DNA of 52,461 bases from Gemmatimonadota bacterium (GTDB lineage: Bacteria; Gemmatimonadota; Gemmatimonadetes; Gemmatimonadales; Gemmatimonadaceae), in assembly GCA_027622655.1 (NCBI GenBank), contig JAQBYI010000022.1, forward strand, positions 1-52,461, written 5' to 3'. The notes below the pieces were generated by a model that did no database searches, was not told the DNA's origin, and worked only from the letters and a program-made list of their open reading frames with translations. A program made the translations under genes and the position numbers. The stretch's first letter is position 1. Every line of letters begins with the position of its first letter. Below, in pieces: positions 9,109-25,300 of this stretch.

Positions 9109-10710
9109 ATGAACGCACCAACGCCCAATCAGTTTCGTCGTCTTGCTGTTGCCGTTTCGGTGTGGTCGGTGTGGTCTGTGTGCTCTGTGGCCACCTTCGC
9201 CGTCCCGACCCCAGCCCAGGCACAGCAGGCCGAGAAACTAGGAACGATCTCTTTCCCGAATTCCGGAAACGCTGCTGCGCAGTCGGGTTTCATCAACGGC
9301 ATGCTGCTGTACTACAGCTTCGAGTACGACCGCGCGGGCGCGTCGTTCCGCGATGCGCAGAAGGCCGACCCGTCCTTTGCGCTCGCCTACTGGGGTGAGG
9401 CGCTTGCTCAGACGCATCAGGTCTGGAACCAGCAGGACCTCGCCGGCGCGCGCGCGATTCTCGCACGCCTCGCTCCGACGCCCGCTGCCCGGCGCGCCAA
9501 GGCCGGAACCGAGCGCGAGAAGATGTATATGGATGCGGTCGAGATTCTCTACGGCGACGGACCCAAGGCACGCCGCGATACGCTCTTTACGGCAGCAATC
9601 GAACGAATCGAGCGCGCACACCCATCAGACGACGAAGCCAAGGTCCTGCACGCCGTTGGACTACTCGGCCTCAACCAGGGCGTGCGTGATTTCACGACGT
9701 ACATGCAGGCCGGCGCGCTCGCCGAGGGCGTGCTCAGGCACAACCCCGACCATCCGGCCGCCGCGCATTTCATCATTCACGCGTTCGACGATCCAACGCA
9801 CGCTCCGCTCGGATTGTGGGCTGCGCGCCTTTACTCGAAGATCGCGCCAGGCGCGCCGCACGCGCAGCACATGACGTCGCACATTTACGTCGCGATGGGG
9901 CTGTGGGACGATGTCGTGTCTCAGAATGTCATCGCCTCGGGGCCGAACAAGGATGCGTATCGCGCCGGCCACTACACCTGGTGGCTCGGCTACGCCTACG
10001 GGCAGCAAGGGCGGTACGCGGAAGCCAAGTCACATCTCGTGACGATGCACAGGAACGCCAAGAGTCCGGTAGCGCCCGGCGAGGCGAACGGGCTCGTGAA
10101 CGTGCGCGCACACTATGTGATTGACGGTGAGCACTGGACGGACGACGTGCTCTCGTGGAAGCTCGCTAGCGTCGGGCCCGGCGCGGCAGTCGATTCGTTC
10201 GTGGTTGGATTGGCGGCCGTGAACCGGCAGGAGCGTCCCACGGCGGCCCGCGCGTCGGCCTACCTCTCAGCCGGCGCGAAGTCAGCACCCGCGGCGCAGC
10301 GTGCCGCGTTGAATGTGTTGAGCAAGGAGCTTGCCGCGGCGATTTCGTCTTCCTCCGGCAAGCACGCCGAAGCCACAACCCTCGCGCGAGACGCAGCAGC
10401 CGCCGAAGAAGCGATGCCGTTCGAGTTTGGTCCGCCGAAGTTCCCGAAACCCACGTATGAGTTGCTCGGCGAGGTGTTGCTCGCGGCAGGGAACGCCGGC
10501 GAGGCTCAGATCGCGTTCCAGAAATCACTCGCTCGCACGCCCGGCCGTTCGCGCTCACTCGTCGGCCTCGCGCGCGCGGCATCAGCGGCCGGTGACAAGG
10601 CCACCGCCGAATCCGCTGTCGCGCACCTCAAGTCCAACTGGCACGGGGCGGACAAGAACCTCCCCGAACTCGCCGAACTCACCCGTCTCGTGGCAGCCGG
10701 CACCAAATGA
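9109..10710 (+). CDS. Exported tetratricopeptide-repeat protein
   Basis: A 533-residue protein with a Sec signal peptide (residues 1-39, ending PAQAQ) and helical TPR-like repeats, for example GMLLYYSFEYDRAGASFRDA, FALAYWGEALAQ and a C-terminal LGEVLLAAGNAGEAQIAFQKSL unit. A His-containing core (HFIIHAFDDPTHAP, HAQHMTSHIYVAMGLWDD) is conserved in this family of exported TPR proteins, but no enzyme activity is known. The hydrophobic part of the signal peptide is encoded by four 9-bp repeat units giving Trp-Ser-Val repeats (9154-9192). The start has a good Shine-Dalgarno, AAGGAG, about nine bases upstream. It overlaps the next gene by 4 bp (ATGA), implying translational coupling. Confidence 0.88.
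   Translation: MNAPTPNQFRRLAVAVSVWSVWSVCSVATFAVPTPAQAQQAEKLGTISFPNSGNAAAQSGFINGMLLYYSFEYDRAGASFRDAQKADPSFALAYWGEALAQTHQVWNQQDLAGARAILARLAPTPAARRAKAGTEREKMYMDAVEILYGDGPKARRDTLFTAAIERIERAHPSDDEAKVLHAVGLLGLNQGVRDFTTYMQAGALAEGVLRHNPDHPAAAHFIIHAFDDPTHAPLGLWAARLYSKIAPGAPHAQHMTSHIYVAMGLWDDVVSQNVIASGPNKDAYRAGHYTWWLGYAYGQQGRYAEAKSHLVTMHRNAKSPVAPGEANGLVNVRAHYVIDGEHWTDDVLSWKLASVGPGAAVDSFVVGLAAVNRQERPTAARASAYLSAGAKSAPAAQRAALNVLSKELAAAISSSSGKHAEATTLARDAAAAEEAMPFEFGPPKFPKPTYELLGEVLLAAGNAGEAQIAFQKSLARTPGRSRSLVGLARAASAAGDKATAESAVAHLKSNWHGADKNLPELAELTRLVAAGTK
9154..9192 (+). repeat. 9-bp-periodic W-S-V repeat, copy A (inside a signal peptide)
   Basis: Four successive units of about TGGTCTGTG end in CTGTGGCC and code for VSVWSVWSVCSVA in the signal peptide of the TPR protein. 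The same motif recurs at 10731-10760 and at 14473-14502. The coding sequence after the repeat (CGCCGTCCCGAC, then a Pro-Ala-rich cleavage region) is also shared with copy B, so the two signal peptides are related although the mature proteins are not. Confidence 0.8.
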
Positions 10711-11762
10711 AGTTGCCGTTGCTGTTCGCAGTTTCTGCGTGGTCTGTGTGTTCTGCGGCCAGCGTCGCCGTCCCGACGCCGGCGGCAGCACAGAAGGTCC
10801 ACCAGCTGCCGGCCACGCCGAGCACGGTCGCGTACGGCTATTACTGGTCCGAAGCCAAGCCTGTGCTGACGATCAACTCCGGTGACTTCGTGGATATCGA
10901 GACGATGCTCACGAACAGCCCCGCCGGGCTCGAGCGGATGGGCGTGAAGCCGGAAGATGTTCCTCAGAATCTCCGGGATATCGTCACTCAAGTCACCGGC
11001 GACCGACGTGGCCCCGGCGGTCACATTCTGACCGGGCCAATCTTCGTGACCGGTGCCGATTCCGGCGACGTACTCGAAGTGCGCATTCAGTCAATCACGC
11101 TGCCAATCGCGTACGGCTACAACGGATGCAGCGGGTTCATGCGTGAGTTGTGCCGAAATCCCGGTGACACAGTTGCTGCGAGCGCCTCACGGATCATCAT
11201 GATGGACCGCACGAAGATGACTGCCGAGATTGCGCCCGGAATTACGGTCCCGCTCCGACCGTTCTTCGGCAGCGTTGGAGTCGCACCGCCACCCGCACTC
11301 GGCCGCGTGAGCAGCAATCCGCCGCATCAACACGCCGGCAACATGGACAACAAGGAACTCGTTGCCGGGACAACGCTGTATGTCCCGGTCTGGGTGAAGG
11401 GTGCACTTCTGGAGTTGGGCGATGGCCATGCCGCGCAGGGCGACGGCGAGGTGGACCAGACCGGCCTCGAGACGAATCTCAAGGGACGGATCCAGGTCGT
11501 GGTCCGAAAGGACATGAAGCTCGACTGGCCGCGGATCGAGACGCCGACGCACTGGATCACGATGGGCGCCGATACTTCACTCGTGGTGGCCACGAAGATC
11601 GCGATCGGTCAGATGGTGAAGATGCTACAAGAAATGAAGGGGATCACGCAGGTGCAGGCGTACCAGGCCGCGTCGATGGCGGCGGACCTCCGGATTACTC
11701 AGCTCGTGGACGGGAACGTGGGCGTCCACATGATGATCGCGAAGGAGTATCTGAAGAAGTAG
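10707..11762 (+). CDS. Exported acetamidase/formamidase family protein
   Basis: A 351-residue protein of the FmdA/AmdA family, which hydrolyses short amides such as formamide or acetamide. Supporting motifs are the GPIFVTGADSGDVLEVRI strand block, the PFFGSVGVAPP segment and GNMDNKELVAGTTLYVPVWVKGALLELGDGHAAQGDGEV, where Asp and His form the active-site metal region. A Sec signal peptide (1-29, ending PAAAQ) predicts periplasmic location, unusual relative to cytoplasmic FmdA. The signal peptide contains the W-S-V repeat also seen in the preceding protein. The start codon overlaps the TPR gene stop as ATGA. Late position in the run suggests a role in amide-nitrogen scavenging along with the flanking amidohydrolases. 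Confidence 0.9.
   Translation: MKLPLLFAVSAWSVCSAASVAVPTPAAAQKVHQLPATPSTVAYGYYWSEAKPVLTINSGDFVDIETMLTNSPAGLERMGVKPEDVPQNLRDIVTQVTGDRRGPGGHILTGPIFVTGADSGDVLEVRIQSITLPIAYGYNGCSGFMRELCRNPGDTVAASASRIIMMDRTKMTAEIAPGITVPLRPFFGSVGVAPPPALGRVSSNPPHQHAGNMDNKELVAGTTLYVPVWVKGALLELGDGHAAQGDGEVDQTGLETNLKGRIQVVVRKDMKLDWPRIETPTHWITMGADTSLVVATKIAIGQMVKMLQEMKGITQVQAYQAASMAADLRITQLVDGNVGVHMMIAKEYLKK
10731..10760 (+). repeat. 9-bp-periodic W-S-V repeat, copy B (inside a signal peptide)
   Basis: Core GTTTCTGCGTGGTCTG then TGTGTTCTGCGGCC, three units, coding for VSAWSVCSAA in the formamidase-like protein's signal peptide. It is nearly identical to intergenic copy C and to coding copy A. Confidence 0.8.
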
Positions 11763-11804
11763 CGTTGGCGCCCGGCATGTCCTAAGGCGTACTTTTTCGG
11801 TCCT

Positions 11805-13226
11805 ATGCGAACCCCCATCGCGTGTACCGTGCTGCTCGGCGCGGTCGCGGCCGTCACTGCCGCCCAGCCGCGGATGCCGTCCGCCGCGGTTCGCCAGTAC
11901 ATCTCTGTTTCTGCTCCGATTGTCGCGCTGACGCACGTTCGCGTCATTGACGGAACTGGAGCGGCCCCTCGCGCAGATCAGACGGTCATCATTCGAGGTG
12001 ACCGCATCGCGGCGATTGGCGACGCCGCCAGCACTGTAGTTCCAGCCGGCGCGCAGGTAATCGACGCAACCGGGAAGTCCGTGATTCCTGGCCTCGTGAT
12101 GGTGCACGAGCATCTGTTCTACCCCACCGGACCGGGCGTCTACGGCAACTTCACGGAGAGCTTCACGCGTCTGTACCTCGCCGGTGGTGTGACGGCGATG
12201 CGCACTGGCGGGAACATGAACGGCTTCGGCGAGATCGCCATCGCGAAGGCAATCTCAGCGGGTCAGAAGCCGGGCCCGTGGATAGATGCCACCGCACCGT
12301 ACCTCGAAGGCCCGGGCTTGGCGCTTGGCCAGGTATACGCGCTAAATGACGCCGCCGACGCGCGCCGTCACGTGAACTACTGGGCAGACGCAGGCGCCAC
12401 GTCGTTCAAGTCGTACATGCACGTCACACGCGACATGCTTGGCGCGGCTATTGACGAAGCGCACAAGCGCGGCCTGAAGGTCACCGGGCACCTCTGTTCG
12501 GTGACGTACCGCGAAGCGGCTGCGCTGGGAATCGACAATCTCGAGCACGGTTTTCTCGCCTCCACCGATTTCGTGAAGGACAAGAAGGCCGATGAGTGCC
12601 CTGGGCAGGGCGCCGGTCAGGCGACAGTCGCCGACCTTGACCCCGCGAGCCCGGAGGCGAAGTCGCTCTTCGCGGAACTCGTGCGGCGCAATGTCGCGGT
12701 CACGTCCACTCTGACGATTTTCGAAACCTTCACCCCGGGGCGACCGATGCCACCGGGCATTGACGTTCTCGAGCCCAGCGTCAAGGCGCAGTTCGAACAG
12801 CGTTACGCCGCCACACAGCAGAACACGACGTCGGGCTACACGAAGCTCTTCCCCAAGGCGATGGCGCTCGAACTCGCCTTCGTGCGGGCCGGTGGCACGC
12901 TCGTGGCCGGCACCGACCCAACCGGTGGAGGCGGCGTCATCGCCGGCTACTCGAACCAGCGGCAGGTTGAACTCCTCGTCGAGGCCGGCTTCACGCCGCT
13001 CGAAGCGATCCGAATCGGCACGCTGAACGGCGCGACCTACCTCGGCATCGGCGCGCAAACTGGGTCACTCGCTGTCGGGAAACAGGCCGATCTGGTGCTC
13101 ATCGCCGGCGACCCGTCTACGCGAATTAGCGATATTCGAAGAGTCGAAACGGTGTTCAAGCTTGGCGTCGGCTACGACCCGGCCAAGCTCATCAGCTCCG
13201 TGAAGGGCAAAGTGGGGATCTTCTAA
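11805..13226 (+). CDS. Exported amidohydrolase (imidazolonepropionase/prolidase-like)
   Basis: A 473-residue metallo-hydrolase. HxH metal ligands are His101 and His103 (VMVHEHLFYP); a likely carboxylated Lys is in TSFKSYMHVT, further ligands are in VTGHLCSVT and DNLEHGF, and the final Asp is in LVAGTDPTGGGG. The C-terminal beta strands (GSLAVGKQADLVLIAGDPSTRI) complete the composite domain. The N-terminus MRTPIACTVLLGAVAAVTAAQP is a Sec signal peptide. This subgroup includes Xaa-Pro dipeptidases/N-acyl-amino-acid hydrolases with broad specificity; substrate is undetermined. The stop codon overlaps the ATG of the Gfo/Idh gene by one base (TAATG), so the two genes are coupled. Confidence 0.92.
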   Translation: MRTPIACTVLLGAVAAVTAAQPRMPSAAVRQYISVSAPIVALTHVRVIDGTGAAPRADQTVIIRGDRIAAIGDAASTVVPAGAQVIDATGKSVIPGLVMVHEHLFYPTGPGVYGNFTESFTRLYLAGGVTAMRTGGNMNGFGEIAIAKAISAGQKPGPWIDATAPYLEGPGLALGQVYALNDAADARRHVNYWADAGATSFKSYMHVTRDMLGAAIDEAHKRGLKVTGHLCSVTYREAAALGIDNLEHGFLASTDFVKDKKADECPGQGAGQATVADLDPASPEAKSLFAELVRRNVAVTSTLTIFETFTPGRPMPPGIDVLEPSVKAQFEQRYAATQQNTTSGYTKLFPKAMALELAFVRAGGTLVAGTDPTGGGGVIAGYSNQRQVELLVEAGFTPLEAIRIGTLNGATYLGIGAQTGSLAVGKQADLVLIAGDPSTRISDIRRVETVFKLGVGYDPAKLISSVKGKVGIF

Positions 13227-14458
13227 TGGCACTCCGCGTCGGCTTTGTCGGATCAGGCTTCAATACGCGTTTCCATATCCAGGGTTGGCGCGGTGTGCGC
13301 GAGAGCGCGGTCTGCGGCATCTGGAGCCCGAACGCCGTGCGCGCCTCAGAGGCTGCAACTCTCGCGCGCCAACTCGACGTCGGACACGCGCGCCGGTTCA
13401 AGAGCATCGCCGAGATGGTCGCAGACTCTGAGATCGACGCCATCTGGCTTTGCGGGCCGAATCACACGCGAATCGAAAATCTCGAAGAGATTGTCGACAC
13501 GATTGCTCGAGGCCGCGGAACGCTGAAGGGAGTCGCGTGCGAAAAGCCGCTCGCGCGCAACGTCGCCGAAGCTATCAAGATGCGCGACATGGCCAAGAAG
13601 GTGGGCCTCAAGACGGGCTACCTCGAGAACCAACTCTTCGCTCCGCACGTAGAGACGGGCAAGAACCTGATCTGGGCGCGCGGTGTGGCAACCACGGGCC
13701 GTCCATACCTCGCGCGCGCAGCCGAGGAGCACAGCGGGCCGCACTCGCCGTGGTTCTGGCAGGGAAAGATGCAGGGCGGCGGTGTACTCAACGACATGAT
13801 GTGCCACTCGGCGCTCGTCGTACGCTATCTGCTCACGCAGCCGGGTCAGCCGCTCAGCACGCTCAAGATCAAGCGCATCACGTCGCACATTGCGTCGCTC
13901 AAGTGGTCGCGCCCAGCGTATGCCAAGAAACTGAAGAGCGCGATGGGAAGCGAAGTGGATTACCTCAAGGCGCCTACTGAGGACTTCGCGAGCATGAACA
14001 TCGAATTCGAAACGCCGGAAGGCGGGATTGCAATTGGCGAGGCGACGACGAGCTGGAGCTACGTTGGCGCCGGCCTCCGCCTCTCGGCTGAACTCCTTGG
14101 CCCCGAGTATTCAATGAAGTGGAACTCGCTCGATTCCGGACTGCAGCTCTTCTTCAGCCGTGAAGTAACCGGCAAAGCGGGCGAAGATCTCGTCGAGAAA
14201 CAGAACGCCGAGCAGGGCGTGATGCCGGTGGTGCCGGAGGAATACGGTGCCTACGGCTACACCAACGAGGACCGCCATTTCGTTCGCGTATTCCTCGGCA
14301 AGGAAAAGCCGCTTCTCACGTGGGACGACGGCGTGGAAGTCGTGAAGATGCTGATGACGGCCTACCAGAGTGCGGAGCAGGGAAAGACGCTCGCGTACCC
14401 GCCAAAGGGAATCGAGAAGTACATTCCGAAAGTGGCCGAGGGAACCTGGAAACCGTAG
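13226..14458 (+). CDS. Gfo/Idh/MocA family oxidoreductase
   Basis: A 410-residue NAD(P)-dependent oxidoreductase. The N-terminal Rossmann motif is VGFVGSGFNTRFHI (residues 5-18), the family EKP motif is at about residue 105 (VACEKPLARN), and the C-terminal alpha/beta domain carries GGGVLNDMMCHSALVVRYLL with the expected His in the catalytic region. Family members oxidise sugar or inositol hydroxyls or reduce the corresponding ketones. There is no signal peptide, so it is cytoplasmic. Coupling to the amidohydrolase gene by TAATG overlap is clear. A link to the DUF1080/MFS operon (3-keto-sugar chemistry often uses Gfo/Idh enzymes) is possible but only inferred. Confidence 0.9.
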   Translation: MALRVGFVGSGFNTRFHIQGWRGVRESAVCGIWSPNAVRASEAATLARQLDVGHARRFKSIAEMVADSEIDAIWLCGPNHTRIENLEEIVDTIARGRGTLKGVACEKPLARNVAEAIKMRDMAKKVGLKTGYLENQLFAPHVETGKNLIWARGVATTGRPYLARAAEEHSGPHSPWFWQGKMQGGGVLNDMMCHSALVVRYLLTQPGQPLSTLKIKRITSHIASLKWSRPAYAKKLKSAMGSEVDYLKAPTEDFASMNIEFETPEGGIAIGEATTSWSYVGAGLRLSAELLGPEYSMKWNSLDSGLQLFFSREVTGKAGEDLVEKQNAEQGVMPVVPEEYGAYGYTNEDRHFVRVFLGKEKPLLTWDDGVEVVKMLMTAYQSAEQGKTLAYPPKGIEKYIPKVAEGTWKP

Positions 14459-14472
14459 CCGTTCCGACGATT

Positions 14473-14502
14473 GTTTCTGCGTGGTCTGCGTGGTCTGCGG
14501 CC
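14473..14502 (+). repeat. 9-bp-periodic repeat, copy C (intergenic)
   Basis: GTTTCTGCGTGG-TCTGCGTGG-TCTGCGGCC lies 15 bp after the Gfo/Idh stop codon and before the proline dehydrogenase gene. It is the noncoding counterpart of copies A and B, and the best conserved of the three. No target-site duplication is obvious at its edges. Confidence 0.75.
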
Positions 14503-14532
14503 ACATTCAGCGCACTCCAACTCTGAACATCG

Positions 14533-15459
14533 ATGCCATTCGGTCGCGGTTTCTTTCTCGCACTGGCGAAGAGCAGCTTCCTCAACGACCACGTCACTCA
14601 GTGGGGCTTCGTCAAGCGCGCGACGAAGAGGTTCATGCCTGGCGAGACGCCCGAAGACGCGATGGCGGCCAGCGCCGCGCTCGCCGCAGACGGACGTGGT
14701 ACGATCTTTACCAAACTCGGCGAGGCGGTCACCGAACCGTCCGAGGCCGCGGCCGTTCGCGACCACTACGTCTGGCTCTTCGACCAGATCAAGACGAAAG
14801 GGCTCCCCGCGCATGTGAGCGTAAAGCCCACGCAGCTCGGCCTCGACATCGACCCGAAGCTGTGTGCGGAGTACACGATGGAGCTCGCGGCCAAGGCGCA
14901 CGCTACCGGAAGCATCCTCTGGATCGACATGGAAGACTCGTCCTACGTCGACCGGACAATCGCTCTCTACAAGCAGGTGAAGGCCGCCTACGCCGATACG
15001 GGGATCGCGATTCAGGCCTACCTGTTGCGAACGCCGAAGGACATCGCCGACTTGATGCCAGTGAACCCGATCGTTCGGCTGGTGAAGGGTGCGTATTCCG
15101 AGCCGGCGCATGTGGCGTTCCCGCGGAAGGCAGATACCGATCGTGCGTTCTACGAACTCTCGGACACGCTGCTCAAGGCGGCCGCGGCAGGGAAGTGCCT
15201 TCCGATTTTCGGCACGCACGACATCGCGCTCGTCGGTCGCATAGCGGCCCGCGCCCAGGAACTCGGCGTTGCGCCGGGCAAGTTCGAGATTCACATGCTC
15301 TACGGAATCAAGGACGCCGAACAGCAGCGACTCCGCGCCGACGGGCACACGGTGAAGACGCTCGTGTCATATGGAAGCGCGTGGTTCAAGTGGTACATGC
15401 GCCGCCTCGCCGAGCGGCCGGCGAATATCGGATTCGTGCTGCGGTCGATGTTGGGGTAG
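14533..15459 (+). CDS. Proline dehydrogenase (monofunctional)
   Basis: A 308-residue flavoenzyme that oxidises L-proline to pyrroline-5-carboxylate, the first step of proline catabolism. The TIM-barrel motifs are clear: VSVKPTQLGLDID, WIDMEDSSYVDRT, IVRLVKGAYSEP (the Arg-Leu-Val-Lys-Gly-Ala-Tyr flavin/substrate motif), PIFGTHD, and the C-terminal WYMRRLAERPANI containing the paired Arg residues that bind the proline carboxylate. Length matches monofunctional Thermus-type PRODH and no P5C dehydrogenase domain or gene is seen nearby. No signal peptide. It closes the plus-strand amino-acid catabolic run. Confidence 0.92.
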   Translation: MPFGRGFFLALAKSSFLNDHVTQWGFVKRATKRFMPGETPEDAMAASAALAADGRGTIFTKLGEAVTEPSEAAAVRDHYVWLFDQIKTKGLPAHVSVKPTQLGLDIDPKLCAEYTMELAAKAHATGSILWIDMEDSSYVDRTIALYKQVKAAYADTGIAIQAYLLRTPKDIADLMPVNPIVRLVKGAYSEPAHVAFPRKADTDRAFYELSDTLLKAAAAGKCLPIFGTHDIALVGRIAARAQELGVAPGKFEIHMLYGIKDAEQQRLRADGHTVKTLVSYGSAWFKWYMRRLAERPANIGFVLRSMLG

Positions 15460-22313: not shown

Positions 22314-25300
22314 CTAGGGCTTCCCTCGAAACTTCCAGTCGTACGACAAGTCGAAGCCAAATTGATAGGTGTCTCCGGCTCCGCTCACCCTGTTGCACGG
22401 CGCGGGGCCGGGGTCTATCGAGATCGCCGCTCCGACCGTCTGCTTAGGCAAGTACTCGGCCGCCGCGCCGAACCAGATCGGTGAGCTGCTGCTCGCGCCC
22501 AGGCGGCCGCTGCCGCAGCGCCCAGCCGTGACGCTGAAGAAAGTGTCGGTGCCGACCTGACGTCCGCCGGTAATCGCGTAGTTGTTGTTCAGCAGACCGT
22601 TCACGGGACTTGACGCGATGGATTGCGCCTCGCCGCTGGCCACACTCGTGACTTGAAGCGTACTGAAGAACGGAAGCACAGTGCCAAGTATCCCCTCGAG
22701 GAATCCCCCGATGGACGGCACGATCGCGGCCGTAGCGGTCTGCGCTGCAGCGTTGGTGCTGGTGGGTGCCTTGAACGATGGCTGCCCAAAAACGAGATAG
22801 CTGATGATCTCGCTCTGCCCCGATGCAGTGCCGAGGTCGCTCGACAGGTCGAGGCGCGGCCGGTCCGTGGTGCCGAACACGTGCGCGCGGATGTGCACGT
22901 CACTTTCTTCGGGGCGCTTGACGAGATACGAAGCGTAGATGTCCAGCGCCGGCGCGATGTCTGGCGTCCCTTCCAGGATGACCACGCCACTGTCCACCAA
23001 GAACGTGCGCCTGATGACGTTGAGGTCCACCCGATAGGTGCCCCGCTCGGCCGTGACGGACCCACTTATCCACGGATGATTCAGTGGACCGAACAACTCC
23101 ACGCCACCTGTGAGCTGCACGTTTGCTTCGCGCGACTTGAGCCGCACGTCGCTACCAAGTGTCACCACGACGCCGTTGACTGACGGAACGCCCATTCGCG
23201 GTGCGGCATCGTCTGCAGGCGGCAGGTTCCGCTGACGTCGCCGCTGGCCAATCGTGAACACGGCGTACGGCAACTGAACCGATCCGGACACCCGCGGCTC
23301 GGCGAGCGTCCCCTCAACGTCCAGAATCCAATCAGCCTCGGCTGTCGCGAGCCGTGGATCGTCGATCACGCGAAAGTTGTTTGCCACGCTGTGCAGGTCG
23401 ACGACCCAGTCGCTCCAGTTCGTTCCCGCCAGTCGGACTACGCCGGCGAGCGACGCCGTGTCGTGGCGCTCGCCGCCGTCGGCCATGCGCAATCGCTTGA
23501 TGATGATCGAGTCGCCGGCGAGTTCGATTTCGGCGGCCGCATTGCGAGCTGCGAATCCGACGCGCGGAACTTCAAAGGCGCCCCTGACCAGCGTGAGCGT
23601 TCCACGTCCGCGCGGATTGCGAAGTGTGCCACCGATATCGACGGTGCCCTGAAGGTTGCCGGCCAGGCCGCGGATGCGTGGCGCGAGTCCCTCGAAGTAG
23701 GCGAGCGTCAGGCTGTCAGTCACGAGGCGCATCGTTATCGGCGCGTCCGGAATGCGCTCGGCTATGTCACGCAGAGTCAGGTCGAGCGGTACGGCTCCGC
23801 GCGCGTCGAGCACCCGGCGCCCGTCGATCGTCGCACCGATCTGCACGTCGGCACTGCGGTCTGCATAACGAGCCTCGAGTGTCACGGACGGCCGCGTGCG
23901 GTCTTCGGAGCGAATCGAATCGAGCGCGGCGGTGAGCGAAATGACCGGAGCGTCGCGGGTGCCGGTCACAGTCGCGTCGGCGCTGATCTGCCCGGAAAGT
24001 TCCGGTGGAAAGAGGTCGAGAAACGATATTTCTTCGAACCCCAGCCTGTTCACGCGGACACGCGCGTTGACCGAATCGCGCTCTGGTACACTTCCGGATG
24101 CCGCGACAAACGCGCCGTGGTCGCTGGTCATCACAATCGAGTCCACGCTCACGCTGTTTGATTCGATCCGTATGGTTGCGGCTGTGTTCATGCGCCACGG
24201 ATGGCCGCGCACCAGCGCGCTGAGCGAATCCACGACGGCCAGATAGCCGCTGCCCGCCCATGTCACTGATGCTGACGCGGTAACCGATGTACTGTCGGCA
24301 GTGCCGACGTCGAGTGCGACGCGGGCGCGCTCGCCTTCGGCGATTTCGGCCGTGAACGATGCCGTGTCGAGCGAGGCCGATCCGGACGCGACCGTCGACG
24401 CCCATCCACTGACGGTTCCGGTTGCGAGGTCCGGGAGGTTCCGCAGGTCGATCGTGACCGAAGTCTGACCGATCGAAGTGTCGCCGTACCGGACAGTCGC
24501 CCCCTGAACAGTGGTCGACAGCGCTGCCGACTTGAACGAACCGATGACTGTTCCGGTTTCCGTGCGCAGGCTCCCGTCGAGGTCGGGAAACCGCGGCGCG
24601 CCCGTGCTGTCGAGCAGGATCGAGCTGAGCGCGCCGAGCGAATCGAACGCCACCGCGAAGTTCAGCGTGTCGGACCGCGTCGAGTCGCTTGCGATCCGAC
24701 CGCTCGCGTTGACAGTCCAGCCATCGGCGCGGACGTCCGCTGTGTCCACGTGAAAGCCATCTCCGTCGAAACCGAAGCGCACCTCGCCGCCGAGGATCCG
24801 CGAATCTCCGACGGTGGACGTGGAGTCGAGCACGAGGGCGATGTGCCGGTCTGTTTGGCCGGACGGCTCGTCGATTAAGATGGAGAACTGTCCTGACAGG
24901 CTCGTGCTGGGGATGTCGCGCCTCGCCAGGAAGGCGCCGGGGTTCAACGACGAGAGCGTGCCATCGATGTCGAGGCGTGTGCGCGCTGAGTCGAGCAGCA
25001 TGGTCCCGCCAATTCTGAGCTCAGCGCTGGCGTCGGAAAGCGCGACCGTGATGTCGACCGTATCGCCGGTGGCGCGGAGCTGAACCGTGCCGGACGGAGT
25101 GCTTTGAAGCGGCTGCGTGGTGCGTCCACGGACGAGAGTGGCGATGGCGATTGCGTCCACTGAAAGGTCGGCGTCGAGCCACCCTCCCGCGCGGTCCGAA
25201 GAGACGCGTCCGGCTCCGCTCACCTTCGTGCGCGCGAAATCGCCATCCACGTGCTCAACCGCGAGCGCCGAAAACGCGATCGCCGTTGTCGGTCCGTTGA

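Follow-up and report, generated by a model that had tools for sequence, protein, structure and literature searches.

The 9-bp-periodic repeat examined here appears to be one arm of a family of small palindromic repeats, dispersed through a Gemmatimonadota genome from a parent element carrying a GxxExxY gene, and copies that landed in genes would have become either signal peptides or loops, depending on their orientation. We give this reading a probability of roughly 0.68. The genome (G000) is a draft MAG of 3.14 Mb in 115 contigs with an estimated contamination of 4.2%, and the window, i.e. the whole stretch of DNA from which the analysis started, is its 52-kb contig C22.

The initial annotation had placed three copies of the repeat on the + strand of the window, at 9154-9192, 10731-10760 and 14473-14502, and all three positions are borne out. 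When up to three mismatches are allowed, a 22-bp core pattern matches these three sites only in the 52 kb, and nothing in 100 dinucleotide shuffles. To avoid circularity, a nucleotide profile was then derived from 12 copies that are non-coding and lie on other contigs, the window copies being left out. This profile recovers the three window copies with E-values from 3e-12 to 9e-10, the next match being at 0.88, and it also recovers every coding copy, at E 3e-13 to 1e-4. Since the non-coding profile finds the window copies, the repeat is a real element, about 55-80 bp long. It is built of a GTT-rich lead, TTCTG(YGTGNTCTG)n, YGGCC and then a TC..GTCCCGAACC tail (GGCC..TC..GTCCCGAACC). The positions of the copies and of the genes concerned are collected in Table 1.

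Table 1. Element copies and associated genes in G000. Positions without a contig name refer to the window; a slash marks the predicted cleavage site.
Feature	Position	Strand	Evidence or remark
TPR protein, exported, 533 aa, predicted signal peptide formed by the repeat	9109-10710	+	ORF, Pfam TPR, N-termini
Element copy in the TPR gene	9155-9214 (aligned), 9136-9216 (envelope)	+	Non-coding profile, E 3.4e-10
Formamidase/acetamidase-family protein	10707-11762	+	PF03069, E 4e-30
Element copy in the formamidase-like gene	10711-10780	+	Non-coding profile, E 2.6e-12
GFO/IDH/MocA oxidoreductase, gene preceding the intergenic copy	13226-14458	+	PF01408
Intergenic element copy	14454-14509	+	Non-coding profile, E 8.7e-10
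Proline dehydrogenase, gene following the intergenic copy	14533-15459	+	PF01619
New predicted signal peptide MMPTLRLFCVFCVICGLLQVPTSAAA/Q	C44:3048	minus	Repeat as core, V-C / F-C-V frame
New predicted signal peptide MPSLSRLFVCVVCGLCGLLQVANPRVANA/Q, NHL-repeat protein	C38:39236	minus	Repeat as core, V-C / F-C-V frame
Antisense in-frame copy GAAEHADYAETAF	C96		Penicillin acylase, loop in mature protein
Antisense in-frame copy KETQSTQNTQTTAKY	C103		NuoE/NuoF-like protein, linker in mature region
Inverted arms around the GxxExxY gene	C67: about 24264-24302 and 24731-24769		Gene at 24340-24669

The coding bases flanking the repeat in the TPR and formamidase-like genes had been described as alike. 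They are indeed so, but they belong to the element itself, which exceeds the 9-bp core on both sides. Similarly, the intergenic copy is the best conserved, as had been stated, when the core consensus is considered, but over the whole element it is the formamidase copy that matches best. The copy in the TPR gene has four 9-bp units and the tail variant TTCGCCGTCCCGACC, and the intergenic copy lies immediately past the GFO/IDH/MocA stop codon. No Rfam structured RNA was found at the gathering score in the window region, while other loci gave a tRNA only, and a known structured RNA was dropped for want of a match.

In the TPR protein, the repeat encodes the signal-peptide core RLAVAVSVWSVWSVCSVATFAVPTPAQ, and in the formamidase-like gene it encodes LPLLFAVSAWSVCSAASVAVPTP. 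The repeat is absent from the N-termini of the TPR homologues compared, and a relative of the TPR protein in G001, 60% identical, has an unrelated signal peptide. The formamidase copy is older: in G003 (86% identity), the orthologue carries a copy with a single unit at this position, with one mismatch to a degenerate 24-bp pattern. The intergenic copy is absent ahead of the same downstream gene at the syntenic sites of G003 and G008, and these empty sites are too diverged for a junction or a target-site duplication to be read. We also note that two genes intact in the window are reduced in these relatives: in G008 (L486, 7380-7454), all that remains of the TPR gene ahead of the formamidase is its last 25 codons, and in G003 (L485, 7251-7403) short pieces of the GFO/IDH/MocA gene are left.

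In the whole of G000, 24 copies (arms) were collected, which is a lower bound because the genome is a draft. They are mostly single arms lying between genes (about 18 are non-coding and 6 are in genes), and they cluster, often as inverted pairs (C11, C38, C67, C98). At C106:3190-3300 (L063), the tail of the element is itself found in tandem, as CGTCCCGAAC units. Other members of the genus have the same GTG repeat type in chance-level numbers or not at all. Matches with three mismatches in G002, G004, G008, G009, G010 and others have no recurring context and were treated as chance, and a match in a thymidine-kinase gene on C47 was judged coincidental, as this coding sequence is also present in other genomes. 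In G003, the signal peptide of a lytic-transglycosylase-like protein (C1:169497-169520, minus strand, L356), MTLRSLVCMFCVICGQVPQQAAAQ, differs from the repeat by three mismatches and has a profile E-value of 2e-7; this may be a chance match.

Four genes of G000 carry the repeat, always in sense, as a predicted signal-peptide core. Two of them are those of the window, and the other two are new; finding further copies at N-termini was the check that the initial annotation had set. The proposal that a dispersed repeat was domesticated as an export signal is thus supported, both by the 24 genome copies and by these two further proteins (C44:3048 and C38:39236). The expectation that coding copies always lie at N-termini in the W-S-V frame, on the other hand, fails genome-wide: the TPR and formamidase signal peptides use this frame, but the two new ones use the V-C / F-C-V frame, and two antisense copies are located in linkers. 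Read by eye from the sequence, all four have a basic n-region, a hydrophobic core (hydrophobicity 1.8-3.1) and an A-x-A cleavage motif, and they would be expected to function in export.

The proteins from C44 and C38 have orthologues in the genus with different signal peptides. For the acylase and the NuoE/F-like protein, the element is absent from the genus orthologues at these places, which vary in all of them, so the alignments demonstrate the absence of element-like sequence elsewhere and nothing beyond that. The repeat is found inside an intact ORF and is absent from the orthologues in the acylase, the NuoE/F-like linker and the NHL-repeat, C44 and TPR proteins.

The orientation of the coding copies follows a simple rule. 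The sense frames in use are hydrophobic, with best 12-residue means of 1.6-1.7, whereas the antisense frames, reading A-E-H-A-D and Q-N-T-Q-T-T, are not (-1.7 to 0.1). All six coding copies obey the rule that sense gives a membrane signal and antisense a loop, for which the chance is 1 of 64. Four of the six are within the first 35 codons (p about 0.002, assuming uniform coding insertions and a mean gene of 330 codons). As 9 bp correspond to three codons, the number of units may change without a frame shift. We read the coding pattern as selection on insertions, not as targeting. Since the sense frames alone are hydrophobic, selection would have kept sense copies as the hydrophobic core of Sec signal peptides (four genes, two in the window) and antisense copies as loops (two genes).

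Another option, raised in the initial annotation, is that signal peptides are exchanged by recombination at the repeat, which would then be a by-product of the shuffling. The adjacent TPR and formamidase genes do have a common tail variant, TCGCCGTCCCGAC, their cleavage-site codons are alike, and both G003 matches found fall in signal peptides. However, the tail variant is not specific, as the C103 linker copy has it too, and an exchange between the TPR and formamidase genes was rejected for this reason. With most copies intergenic, two antisense in mature proteins and the signal peptides in two frames, recombination is not needed, and we consider it very improbable. Insertion followed by selection on orientation fits better, because the orthologues are without most of the insertions.

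The scenario in which the hydrophobic codons of signal peptides (GTG, TGC, TTC, TGG) just happen to resemble a dispersed repeat is hardly credible. Core codons are biased, it is true, and weak matches such as the lytic-transglycosylase one, with its 3 mismatches, could arise by chance. Yet the homology spans 55-70 bp including lead and tail, it is detected with the profile from non-coding copies, and the reversed pattern, used as a control, gives zero matches in G000. For the four G000 signal peptides, the non-coding profile rules the coincidence out.

We now consider where the repeat comes from. The original interpretation is supported only in part. The likely source, the inverted pair of arms around a GxxExxY gene on C67, could not be seen from the window. 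The single gene between these arms is GxxExxY / PDDEXK_3, with no other gene and no Y1 (HUH) transposase present. It matches TIGR04256 with E 2e-34 and 118 bits (curated cut-off 35) and PF13366 with E 2e-35 and 122 bits (curated cut-off 22). The residues D56, E66, K68 and Q80 are invariant in 15 GxxExxY members, which is consistent with a PD-(D/E)XK-type site; no solved structure resembling the protein by sequence was found. Both C67 arms carry the outer tail that is found on dispersed copies, and several dispersed copies have a lead resembling the bases immediately internal to the 3' arm. The C67 element, with its two inverted arms around a gene of the PD-(D/E)XK-type nuclease fold, is the apparent parent. 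Arm and hairpin derivatives would have spread in G000 in the way that MITEs or REPs do, inserting mostly between genes, and we infer that the GxxExxY protein mobilises the arms. In G001 (C33, L303), a GxxExxY gene is flanked by arms of another kind, AACTACAACTGCAAC repeats, which look similar to the GTT-rich lead seen in the window family.

The association of GxxExxY genes with inverted arms is not confined to G000. Among the relatives searched, an inverted repeat with a score of >=14 between the 350-bp flanks is found at 19 of 47 GxxExxY loci, compared to 1 of 97 other loci (Fisher p 5e-10). The single control match, a formamidase, is probably the G016 formamidase lying between palindromes; this orthologue (C27, L142/L282) has an independent TCC-type palindrome at its N-terminus and another just past its 3' end. 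In a set of named genomes (Gemmatimonadota, Acidobacteriota, Bacteroidota, Verrucomicrobiota, Planctomycetota, Chloroflexota and others), inverted flanks occur at 37 of 70 GxxExxY loci versus 1 of 70 pairs of mismatched flanks (Fisher p 5e-13). For the contig scan, a closer GxxExxY alignment was used, the first one being too diverse. Many of the arms are about 9-bp periodic, and their sequences are locus-specific, e.g. CGCGGAGATTCGCGGAG, CACGGATGAACACGGATG and ACGCAGGTTTACGCAGGT. In G030, hairpins flank the GxxExxY gene on both sides. As a point against the proposed parent element, some repeat-rich genomes (G016) carry GxxExxY genes with arms unlike their main repeat type.

A second arm type, CCGCGGAGATTCGCGGAGA, adjoins GxxExxY in G000, G003 and G008. 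These three genomes have 14, 7 and 26 copies, respectively, while the other 15 members of the genus have 0-2 each. Many of the G008 copies are inverted pairs about 140-150 bp apart.

It is important to weigh against this the possibility that the repeat is of REP or MITE type and owes its mobility to a different enzyme (RAYT/TnpA-REP or an IS transposase), with GxxExxY as a passenger between palindromes. The hairpins of G033 do look like REPs or MITEs: about 100 pattern matches were found there, the majority as inverted pairs with 30-60 bp between them, close to gene ends. In addition, the measure applied detects no clear inverted flanks at roughly half of the GxxExxY loci. However, arms and gene co-occur across many phyla and the arm type is particular to each locus. 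Moreover, in the comparison of 18 genomes the second arm type follows its GxxExxY gene, and the C67 arms enclose no other gene. We therefore regard a different mobiliser as unlikely, although clearly less so than the exchange of signal peptides.

Concerning G033 itself, no signal-peptide set comparable to that of G000 was seen, and the coding fraction of its hairpins was discarded as unusable, since ORF calls are too noisy in its GC-rich DNA. Several palindrome families (CGCAGAGGA, CACAGAGGA, CGCAGATTA and CGCGGATCA; L234-L279) coexist in this genome, and some adjoin GxxExxY genes (L334, L341).

Turning to known systems, REPs and their RAYT/TnpA-REP genes (REPtrons, REPINs; PMC8266576, PMC3116915) involve a Y1/HUH transposase gene flanked by inverted repeat copies. 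The present family shares with them the many small, mainly extragenic palindromic copies (hairpins in G033, mostly single arms in G000), the inverted copies around a presumed mobiliser gene and the gene-specific repeat type. It differs in its arm units of about 9 bp and in the PD-(D/E)XK-type GxxExxY gene between the arms. The system works like REP/RAYT or MITEs, yet it is not filed as REP/RAYT, because this gene is no Y1 transposase. MITEs are exemplified by QMITE1 and QMITE2 of Coxiella (PMC5896051). Like these, the derivatives are non-autonomous, with inverted repeats such as the G008 pairs, and have their ends in common with a larger gene-bearing element (C67 for the dispersed arms, C61 for the dispersed copies of the second type). 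Unlike MITEs, they come with no recognised transposase, and in G000 they are mostly single arms.

Insertion in frame within proteins, at tolerant positions, is known from the Rickettsia palindromic elements, and the G000 repeats are likewise inserted in frame. They differ in sequence and size, and their coding copies are preferentially in signal peptides when in sense orientation and in linkers when antisense. A precedent for a repeat-derived signal peptide is RU-2 in YPO1552 of Y. pestis (PMC2759123). Compared to the enterobacterial RU-1/2/3 found inside genes, which have another sequence and no nine-base units, G000 presents four cases in one genome and a sense/antisense rule (PMC2759123).

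The C67 gene clearly belongs to the GxxExxY family (TIGR04256 / PF13366), for which no repeat link is described in the literature searched. No paper tying GxxExxY or PF13366 to dispersed repeats was found there, and one paper naming the family has it as an incidental annotation. The literature covered takes in few subscription journals, and the novelty of the link is accordingly provisional.

As to the wider meaning, the odds are about even that GxxExxY genes with inverted arms of about 9-bp periodicity make up an unrecognised class of mobile elements in many phyla, that many of the dispersed repeats of CTCTGCG and CACGGAT type in bacteria from soil, freshwater and gut are their arm and hairpin derivatives, and that these derivatives seed signal peptides or loops according to orientation. 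The GxxExxY gene would then be a candidate source, open to biochemical testing, for a widespread and unexplained group of bacterial dispersed repeats. The G000 copies would in turn provide a concrete route from repeat DNA to an export signal, in which a three-codon-periodic repeat, hydrophobic in sense alone, is sorted by selection.
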